Shown piece by piece: positions 28,886 through 31,604 of a stretch of DNA of 32,148 nt; positions within the stretch are counted from its first letter, which is position 1; each line of letters opens with the position of its first letter. Under the pieces are notes generated by a model that was not told the DNA's origin, did not search any database, and saw only the letters and a program-made list of their open reading frames with translations. The position numbers and the translations under genes were made by a program. The DNA is from an uncultured Sulfolobales archaeon (lineage in GTDB: Archaea > Thermoproteota > Thermoprotei_A > Sulfolobales > NBVN01), in the NCBI GenBank assembly GCA_938017505.1, contig CALIKV010000020.1, forward strand, positions 1 through 32,148. The letters run 5' to 3'.

Positions 28886-28981
28886 GCCGCGGTAGTATAG
28901 CCCGGTCAAGTATGCGGGCCTCTCGAGCCGCGTCAGCGAGGATAGCCCGTGACCCGGGTTCAAATCCCGGCCGCGGCACCA
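28886..28981 (+). tRNA. tRNA-Glu (anticodon CTC) with an 18-nt intron at 37/38
   Basis: Acceptor GCCGCGG/CCGCGGC, anticodon stem CGGGC (28915-28919) pairing with GCCCG (28945-28949), loop CTCTCGA with anticodon CTC (28922-28924), T arm CCGGG-TTCAAAT-CCCGG, discriminator A (28978) and an encoded CCA (28979-28981). The 18 bases 28926-28943 must be removed. AGCC is repeated at both intron ends, so the exact cut can shift by up to four bases, but 37/38 is the canonical archaeal site. Confidence 0.92.
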
Positions 28982-29042
28982 GTCTCGGCTTCACAGCCAA
29001 AAGCCCCTTCTCTTTAGGGTTGGAAAGTCGGTGAATCTTCGA

Positions 29043-31364
29043 TTAGTGGCGGCTACGTTTCCAAGCCGCTATGAGTATGGCTGTTACGATAGCTGCCAGA
29101 ACCACTAACGTCGTGGCCACAAGCCATGTACTTGTGGCTGTAACGGGTCGCTCAGACTCCACTATTCTGATCGTGAGCAGCGCCTCCTTCACAATCTCTC
29201 CACATACGGCTTTAACTCTTAGGATATGTGATCCCGTCGGCGCTTCCTCAGACGCTGTGATTGTCAGCGTCGTGTAGATCGGCGGGGTATCCGCCTCCAC
29301 AACGAAGCTGCCTGAAACGCCTTTAGGCATGTCCGAAATTGAAAGGAATACCTTCTGACGTGCTTCACCGGCCACGCGCTCAACATACACGCTTACAAGC
29401 CCCGATTCTCCTCTCCGTATAGTGACTATGTTTGGGTTTAATGAGATAGCGTAGTCGAACGCCTCTGTGAACTCGGCGACTAGGCTTATTGGGCCGTTTA
29501 TCCAAACAGTTGTGGGGTTGTTGAAGCGCTCGTACGTTGAGCTAACCGCGTAGAGTGCCCTCCACATCTTAAACTCGTACTTGTTCCCTGGAATAGCCGT
29601 TACATTCACACGCGACCCCGCATCGAACCAGTACACGCCTGGACTTGGATCAGTTGTTCCCTTACCTGCCTCAGCGCCGATCTCAAGCTTGTACTGCACT
29701 TTATAGGAGGCATCAACGAAGCCCCCTTCAGGCGGAATCACTATTACGCCGCTCACAGAATCTGAAAGGCCGCTTGCTGAAGCCCACCTATACCGCACGT
29801 CCCCAGTGATGGACTCAACGACTTGAATCCACGCGTACGTATGTGTTGAGCCGACTTCCCAAACGAATTGCCTTGGCAGGTCAGACAGTGAATAGCTTTC
29901 CCCGTCAACTATTAAAACTCTTCCGGAGGCGTCGGATCCCAAGCCGCTTGCAGAGAACGTTACCATGGCTACACGTTGAAGCCTCATAGTTATCGAGCCT
30001 GAACCGCTGACTGTAGCTAAGGCTGAAGGCGAGGATCGCGGCACCACGCTTACGTTGCCGCTCGTTTCCCATCTCAAGAACCTATACTCGCTTGGAATGA
30101 TTCCAGCGGATAGCGGGTATGAGCCAGCTACGGCTTCCGTTGATTCGTGATGGGAATAGGTTGAACCTGTGAAGTTTATTGTTGCATCACCGACGGAATT
30201 GTCATCATGGTCGAGGACTTGGAAGTTAATAGTGTGTGTTGCGGCCGTAACTGTTAAAGCGTACTGTGCTGTCCTCGAGAGTCCTCCTCCAAAACCAGTA
30301 ATCGCTACTTCATACGTGCCTGTAGGGGTGATGGCCGAAGTCGTAATGATCATCGTGCTTGAGGCAGACGGCGAGCCTGAGCTGATCGTGACGTTGCTCG
30401 GATCGAATGCGGCTGATGCTCCTTGAGGGAGGCCTGAGACCGAGAGGTTAACTAATACGGGAGAACTGTATTCACCTGTTAGAGTGACTGTTACCATTGT
30501 GTAGACGTTTCCCCCTTGTATTACCGAGCCGCTTGCAGGGTCGACGCTCACCGAGAAATTTAAGAGGGACTCGCTTTGGGATGCTTGAGCAGCATATACT
30601 GTGTAAAGCGTGTATAGAGCGTCTGCGACGTAATTTGCTGCGAGGTTTAGGGATTCACCAGCCCTGCCCCTGAATATCGGGTCGTTCCAGTTATAGTTCC
30701 TGTCCATCCAGGTGCATGTCAAGCCCCTCCAAGACCTGTCGAACGTCGTGTCATACGCTAGCTCAACAGCTGCATCGTAGGCCATGATGAACCTCAATTC
30801 CCCATCAAACCTTAGGAAAGCGTTGAACTCCGAGCTGTAACTTGAGGTCCTCGAGTTCACGTAATTCTCGTAGTCACTGTGATGTACCTCAGCACCCCAA
30901 TCGGTGTTAGCGCCCATAACGTGACCGAAAACAGCCATGTCCGCTATATAGTGGGACATAACTCCAGCGTACTTAGCAGCTGAAGGGAGATCCCCTGAGA
31001 GCATGAACATCAGTGCCTTGTTGAACGTCGCGTTAGCCCGCCGTGCAGCCGAATCATCCGTTAAGACCCCGCCTGAGCTGAAGTATATGTGGTGGAGGCC
31101 TGTATCGCCTATCCCGTCCGGAGCCCTACCATTATCCGGGAGCTCCGTTCCGTAAAGATACCAGTTCAAATTCGCGAGGATCCAATCCCTAGCCTCGCTT
31201 GGAAGCCAGTCAAGAGCGTGCTCAGCAATCCAGTCATGGGTTCCGTATTCCGGACTAGAGAAGTCGGAGCTGAAGCCTCCATTACTCCAGCTATAAACAA
31301 CCTCCGGAGACATAGCTAGCATGAAGATCGGCACAAGGCAGAGAAAGAGCGTCAGTCTCCCCAA
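29043..31364 (-). CDS. Membrane-anchored surface protein with zinc-dependent phospholipase C-like domain
   Basis: Secreted 773-aa protein. A signal peptide (about 1-25, ending VVYS) is followed by W26. Residues 26-260 form a zinc-dependent phospholipase C/S1-P1-like domain with the full ligand set: W26 as mature N-terminus, H43, D77, H92, H138, D142, H148 (D142-H148 spacing as in the Bacillus cereus enzyme), H162 and E166 (HSDYE, compare HSKYE). Then come beta-sandwich domains: one Ig-like (about 270-375), thermopsin/S-layer-like modules (RYRWASASGL, ASYKVQYKLEI, about 450-640) and another Ig-like (about 640-735). A single transmembrane helix (about 746-767) and a KRSRH tail anchor it. The substrate is unknown: archaeal ether lipids, nucleic acid or exogenous phospholipids. 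Minus-strand TATA near 31395-31405. Confidence 0.85.
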   Translation of the reverse strand: MGRLTLFLCLVPIFMLAMSPEVVYSWSNGGFSSDFSSPEYGTHDWIAEHALDWLPSEARDWILANLNWYLYGTELPDNGRAPDGIGDTGLHHIYFSSGGVLTDDSAARRANATFNKALMFMLSGDLPSAAKYAGVMSHYIADMAVFGHVMGANTDWGAEVHHSDYENYVNSRTSSYSSEFNAFLRFDGELRFIMAYDAAVELAYDTTFDRSWRGLTCTWMDRNYNWNDPIFRGRAGESLNLAANYVADALYTLYTVYAAQASQSESLLNFSVSVDPASGSVIQGGNVYTMVTVTLTGEYSSPVLVNLSVSGLPQGASAAFDPSNVTISSGSPSASSTMIITTSAITPTGTYEVAITGFGGGLSRTAQYALTVTAATHTINFQVLDHDDNSVGDATINFTGSTYSHHESTEAVAGSYPLSAGIIPSEYRFLRWETSGNVSVVPRSSPSALATVSGSGSITMRLQRVAMVTFSASGLGSDASGRVLIVDGESYSLSDLPRQFVWEVGSTHTYAWIQVVESITGDVRYRWASASGLSDSVSGVIVIPPEGGFVDASYKVQYKLEIGAEAGKGTTDPSPGVYWFDAGSRVNVTAIPGNKYEFKMWRALYAVSSTYERFNNPTTVWINGPISLVAEFTEAFDYAISLNPNIVTIRRGESGLVSVYVERVAGEARQKVFLSISDMPKGVSGSFVVEADTPPIYTTLTITASEEAPTGSHILRVKAVCGEIVKEALLTIRIVESERPVTATSTWLVATTLVVLAAIVTAILIAAWKRSRH

Positions 31365-31604
31365 GCGAGATACCTAAGGTCATATGCTAACAAAGCATAT
31401 AAGGTAAGGGATAAGATCCTCAAGAGCTTAAAATCCGTAAGGAGGGACGTCGAGTGACGCCAGTCAACCAGCTCTTAACCACATCTGCTCCGAGTACGAG
31501 GGATTGTCCTGAGCCCAGAGCGTGGGGAACAAGATCGACAACCCCGTAAAGGATGAGGGGGTTGAACCCGAAGCGGCGAGTTGACGCAACCAAGTTCTAT
31601 ACCG

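Follow-up and report, generated by a model that had tools for sequence, protein, structure and literature searches.

A surface-anchored protein with a predicted phospholipase C-type zinc centre in a Sulfolobales archaeon, and its relatives in archaea and tailed viruses

In this study, we analysed a stretch of 32,148 nucleotides from an uncultured Sulfolobales archaeon (contig CALIKV010000020.1, positions 1 to 32,148), hereafter the window, which contains a gene for a large phospholipase C (PLC)-like protein. The gene, its parts and its surroundings are laid out as follows.

28886..28981, plus strand: tRNA-Glu(CTC), flanking the insertion
28982..31604, no strand assigned: inserted segment from tRNA-Glu to a YhbY-like gene, missing in three same-genus genomes (genome comparison)
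29043..31364, minus strand: gene for the surface-anchored zinc PLC-like protein, 773 amino acids, TTG start, single open frame (open reading frame and Pfam)
31396..31402, minus strand: putative TATA-like box TTATATG, ~35 bp upstream of the start (read from the letters)
31290..31364, minus strand: signal peptide, residues 1-25, predicted cleavage S25|W26 (hydropathy; -1/-3 rule and conservation step in 61 relatives)
31287..31289, minus strand: Trp26 codon, predicted mature N-terminus and main-chain zinc ligand (W in 59/61, Y in 2/61)
30579..31289, minus strand: catalytic head, residues 26-262, predicted all-alpha with a PLC fold (model pLDDT 87, pTM 0.90)
31236..31238, minus strand: His43 (mature 18), proposed zinc ligand, equivalent of His14 (sequence and conservation)
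31134..31136, minus strand: Asp77 (mature 52), equivalent of Asp55 (spacing and conservation)
31089..31094, minus strand: His91-His92 (mature 66-67), His91 being the equivalent of His69 by spacing, His92 the one paired in the HMM alignment; both invariant
30921..30953, minus strand: HxxxDxxxxxH with His138, Asp142 and His148 (mature 113, 117 and 123), equivalents of 118, 122 and 128 (spacing and conservation)
30867..30881, minus strand: HxxxE with His162 and Glu166 (mature 137 and 141), equivalents of 142 and 146 (spacing and conservation)
29145..30578, minus strand: beta-rich stalk, residues 263-740, with Ig-like modules at residues ~263-378 and ~630-739 and an InlB-like repeat at ~572-634 (below Pfam cut-off) (Pfam scan, clade comparison, full-length model)
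29049..29135, minus strand: C-terminal membrane helix and basic tail, residues 744-772 (hydropathy and full-length model)

The open reading frame at 29043-31364 is a real gene and a member of PF00882, which scores 34.8 bits over residues 42-175 (cut-off 26.8, E 1.9e-8, Pfam); a PF00882 search of the archaeon's own genome, 82% complete, found a single such gene, at 38.5 bits. From the full-length structural model (pLDDT 69.5, pTM 0.44), no more can be read than that the head is all-alpha, the stalk all-beta and the C-terminus a membrane helix. A large surface protein with the same Ig-like stalk module is encoded on contig 35 of this genome (L004/L005, a frame of 1294 amino acids), the module sharing 34-36% identity with window residues 263-383.

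In three genomes of the same genus, ~2-12 bases separate tRNA-Glu(CTC) from the end of the YhbY-like gene that comes next, and the order methyltransferase, small membrane protein, tRNA-Glu, YhbY and Rpr2-like gene is kept; in the window, 2,623 bases (~2.6 kb) lie between tRNA-Glu and the YhbY-like gene. Given this empty site in the three relatives, the PLC gene is most simply explained as a gain at the tRNA 3' end. A repeat search and an alignment with tRNA fragments gave nothing above shuffles as att sites at the insertion, and no integrase was found at the locus. The GC content of the PLC gene (0.523) is like that of its neighbours and its GC3 is slightly lower (0.561 vs 0.576-0.661); base composition gives no foreign mark. 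In the tree, the window gene groups with Brockarchaeota and two other Thermoproteota families (support 100/94). The stalk shares 57% identity with the stalks of PLC members of this clade, which argues that head and stalk were inherited together, and a domestic fusion of the stalk to the head was rejected for this reason. The initial annotation had described an isolated gene for a membrane-anchored protein, and both points hold: the PLC gene is the sole content of the inserted segment, with no pathway neighbours seen and no lipid genes linked to it, and hydropathy and the full-length model confirm the C-terminal membrane helix.

In mature numbering (W26 = 1), the proposed ligand set consists of W1, H18, D52, H66 (with H67 adjoining), H113, D117, H123, H137 and E141. 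The mature chain of Bacillus cereus PLC has 245 residues and binds its metals through Asp55, His69, His118, Asp122, His128, His142 and Glu146 (PMC10420013), and the spacings D-14-H, H-4-D, H-10-H, H-24-H and H-28-E are the same in the two proteins. Across the fetched loci, 86 six-frame open reading frames matched this exact-spacing pattern, all of them PLC relatives, with 0 matches among the ~2,600 other open reading frames. His14 of the B. cereus enzyme is presumably a further Zn3 ligand; the distance from W1 to the corresponding His is 17 in the window protein vs 13 in B. cereus PLC. The proposed ligands are essentially invariant across 63 non-redundant related domains: D52, H66, H67, H113, H123, H137 and E141 are each present in 63/63, H18 is kept in 62/62 and D117 in 62/63, one sequence being without it.

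A signal peptidase cut exactly before W26, exposing an N-terminal Trp, is well supported by comparison with relatives. Upstream of W1 these carry divergent hydrophobic leaders, while from W1 onward a WSNGGYS motif is nearly fixed, and column conservation, at 0.16-0.48 ahead of position 1, rises abruptly to 0.80-1.00 past it. Position -1 is A, G, S or C in 61/61 relatives, and position -3 is V, A, S, C or T in 60/61. Residue 1 itself is Trp in 59 of the 61 and Tyr in two; since two members do with Tyr, a Trp side chain is not indispensable, and the main-chain ligand role seems to be what matters.

The AF2 model of the head (residues 26-262; pLDDT 87, pTM 0.90) was compared with the PDB by Foldseek, where B. 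cereus PLC came first (E 5.2e-5, TM 0.64, probability 1.00), followed by clostridial and Listeria PLCs, and S1/P1-type nucleases, S1 and SmNuc1 among those listed, appeared at E values of at least 0.06. The predicted head thus matches the PLC fold best, while identity to B. cereus PLC is ~17% and the rmsd of ~7 Å over 261 columns indicates that the two are related only distantly. A convergence of the ligands around three metals is predicted from this global alignment with B. cereus PLC. A single-sequence search of the PDB gave nothing useful and a family profile was needed, with which B. cereus PLC variants came out on top (E 0.004). An intact PLC-type zinc centre with Trp26 as mature N-terminus had been proposed at the outset, together with a structure prediction as a check: the centre is supported by the B. 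cereus spacing and near-invariance of the ligands in 63 relatives, the -1/-3 rule and the conservation step at W1 agree with the predicted N-terminus, and the modelled head is closest to B. cereus PLC, with S1/P1 enzymes trailing.

The choline pocket of the phosphatidylcholine-preferring PLC we take to be formed by Glu4, Tyr56 and Phe66. By ungapped spacing from D52 and W1, the matching positions of the family are Asn53 (58/63), Thr63 (50/63) and Gly4 (59/63), and with Asn and Thr at the sites of Tyr56 and Phe66 a preference for phosphatidylcholine is not expected. In S1 nuclease, a Lys/Arg position (Lys68) lies three residues past the catalytic Asp, and Phe81 and Asp83 are further residues to compare (PMC5201275). 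At +3 from the catalytic Asp, R is found in 14/63 relatives and Q, N, A or others in the rest, and the equivalents of Phe81 and Asp83 by spacing are an invariant His and Tyr in the PLC-like family. On this basis, we favour as substrate a phosphodiester of lipid or lipid-like nature rather than nucleic acid.

Scanning GTDB genome contigs with the catalytic domain identified 18 archaeal loci with 57-76% identity, from Brockarchaeota, a 'Crenarchaeota' MAG, Bathyarchaeota, Methanomethylicales, Thorarchaeota, Methanosarcinales including ANME-2c, and Thermoplasmata, and a profile built from these 18 loci (A1) detected the family in 39 of the 398 genomes sampled from the phylum. The PLC-like family covers several archaeal phyla; the window genome is not alone in having such a gene. 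A surface anchor is present in every member with a complete C-terminus, in the form of a membrane helix, a [V/I/T]PEF motif plus helix, a dockerin type I domain or a PGF tail. The tails with [V/I/T]PEF and helix resemble the sorting domain PEF-CTERM, with TIGR03024 scoring under its cut-off. Dockerin type I domains are found in Methanosarcinales members (PF00404, 1.1e-8, tested in L041), with a dockerin-like end in the copies L041, L044, L045, L046 and L048 from ANME-2c and others, and suggest attachment to a cohesin-bearing surface scaffold. That the head is conserved while its anchor has been exchanged repeatedly points to a need for the enzyme to remain surface-bound.

Relatives were also found in tailed viruses. 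The family profile identified 12 contigs in IMG/VR, 11 of which have a common tailed-virus module with the order scaffold/decoration, HK97-type major capsid (PF05065, 7e-9), portal, PLC, connector-like, head-type and tail-tube gene (PF18906, 4.5e-17), L084 starting after the portal; in the twelfth, L093, which belongs to another lineage, the PLC adjoins a tail module as judged by gene order alone. A capsid-based contig scan yielded 64 contigs, 43 of them with both portal and connector, and among these 43 the PLC occurs in 14, always in the portal-connector interval and in the same orientation, the remainder having other genes or nothing there. This interval is a variable cargo site (IMG/VR contigs L083-L099 and L107). 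Other cargo of the interval includes propeller-like proteins with a signal peptide and a C-terminal membrane helix (L086:5196-6842, L096:5217-7676 and L133:4904-6133), that of L086 having WD40-like repeats. The viral PLC at L094:6537-7568 lies in two reading frames, through either a sequencing error or a real frameshift. Fusions of PLC to a C39-type peptidase with a membrane tail are encoded by viral contigs (L086:7899-10061, L089:4204-6357 and L096:7714-9846) and by one genome (L073:139-2385). In genomes of family f14, assigned to Bathyarchaeota since L009 coincides with L042 from that group, the PLC adjoins a viral connector gene (L010/L078, L019 and L075), which indicates proviruses. The viral clade is distinct from that of the window in the tree. 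No relative of the PLC-like protein was found among INPHARED phages or in the BFVD structure library, and open-licence papers on archaeal PLCs, on Bathyarchaeia viruses with phospholipase and on PLC-based lysis by archaeal viruses yielded no account of such an association; phospholipase is unmentioned in those archaeal virus papers covering Bathyarchaeia that were examined.

Our best reading, which we regard as reasonably probable as a whole, is that the window protein is a surface-anchored zinc phosphodiesterase of the PLC fold that cuts polar lipid head groups and whose gene was gained horizontally. We infer its zinc binding, catalysis, substrate and biological role, and the metal in the predicted zinc centre could be other than zinc. 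The protein would be exported and cut by signal peptidase before Trp26, and the new N-terminus would form a three-zinc centre with His, Asp and Glu side chains, which may activate a water molecule for splitting of a phosphodiester. The catalytic head would project from the cell on its beta stalk, with the C-terminal helix anchoring the protein in the membrane. Archaeal membranes have glycerol-1-phosphate ether lipids, and the most likely substrate is not phosphatidylcholine but the polar head group of archaeal ether lipids, phospholipids or phosphoglycolipids, whether these belong to the cell itself or to its neighbours. The gene was putatively acquired as an insertion beside tRNA-Glu from a donor lineage related to Brockarchaeota and neighbouring Thermoproteota. 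Since close relatives manage without the gene and no pathway neighbours were seen, a role in scavenging or antagonism is more probable for the window host than one in housekeeping.

An S1/P1-like nuclease or 3'-nucleotidase scavenging extracellular nucleic acid, an option already raised in the initial annotation, would have the same superfamily fold and a trinuclear zinc site with an N-terminal Trp, and S1 and SmNuc1 do occur in the Foldseek list. However, these enzymes rank far under the PLCs there, the last ligand is Glu in 63/63 domains, the H-14-H spacing is of PLC type in most rows, the equivalent of S1 Lys68 is unconserved, and Phe81 and Asp83 are replaced by other, invariant residues; the nuclease option is weakened accordingly, and we consider it quite improbable. 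It is somewhat less doubtful, though still unlikely, that the protein cuts a non-lipid surface phosphodiester or frees lipid-anchored surface molecules in the manner of animal GPI-specific phospholipase D (GPI-PLD): the anchoring of all members at the surface via stalks or tails, the loss of the choline pocket and the related N-terminal domain generally known from GPI-PLD are in keeping with such a role, but we know of no glycan-phosphate substrate in these archaea and no gene cluster is linked to the gene.

The viral relatives raise the further question of whether the enzyme serves viruses in the first place, for lysis or egress, with the window gene as a domesticated provirus remnant. While the restriction of PLC to one interval in 14 tailed-virus contigs, some with C39-type peptidase fusions, and the position of the window gene at a tRNA 3' end, in an insertion missing from sister genomes, would agree with this, the window copy falls outside the viral clade and groups with copies not seen beside viral genes, the viral connector was not found in the window genome (one query), the locus has neither att repeat nor integrase, and its GC is neighbour-like; such an origin is therefore very improbable. 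For the viruses themselves, the late-module position and the peptidase fusions suggest a function in egress, and surface modification fits equally well in view of the nearby surface-type cargo. We tentatively propose, as a hypothesis with a rather small chance of being correct, that tailed viruses of Bathyarchaeota-like archaea use a PLC anchored at the host surface, in some cases fused to C39, either for egress, by breaching the ether-lipid membrane and S-layer, or for changing the surface of the infected cell, and that the cellular copies, including that of the window, form an exchangeable pool.

With a conserved, always surface-anchored family in many archaeal phyla at hand, the target that is cut can be tested directly, and a common means of cleaving polar lipids on the cell surface may exist in archaea and the viruses that infect them. 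To our knowledge, no archaeal enzyme of this PLC type has been characterised. Most of the interest lies in the viral association: virus exit from archaea without a pseudomurein wall has been argued in a review to need a fundamentally different, still unidentified lysis mechanism (PMC4456609), and the fixed position in tailed viruses and the fusions to C39 peptidases bear on this problem. If the egress proposal is true, it would constitute a lysis route without holin or endolysin in archaea that lack pseudomurein.

Among known systems, the phosphatidylcholine-preferring PLC of B. cereus (PF00882; PDB 1ah7) shares with the window protein the predicted all-alpha fold, the identities and spacing of the ligands and the exposed N-terminal Trp. 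It is a soluble enzyme, whereas the window protein, at the low identity given above, has a stalk and a membrane anchor and is without choline-pocket residues at the matching positions. S1/P1 nucleases (S1, SmNuc1 and AtBFN2) share the superfamily fold and a zinc cluster that uses the main chain of an N-terminal Trp, but differ in the last ligand and the spacings, give a weaker fold match, and have nucleotide-site residues that are unconserved in the window family. GPI-PLD is an extracellular enzyme with an N-terminal PF00882 domain plus a beta domain, and its combination of PLC-like head and beta-rich domains resembles the general layout of the window protein, the beta part of the latter consisting of Ig-like modules with a membrane helix. 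On the viral side, C39-like peptidases have been proposed as lysins of archaeal viruses such as Methanophagales virus GBV302, in a paper whose main text does not name phospholipase (PMC12596118). A C39-like domain in an archaeal virus is likewise present in L086, L089 and L096, where, unlike in the GBV302 peptidase, it is fused to a PLC head.
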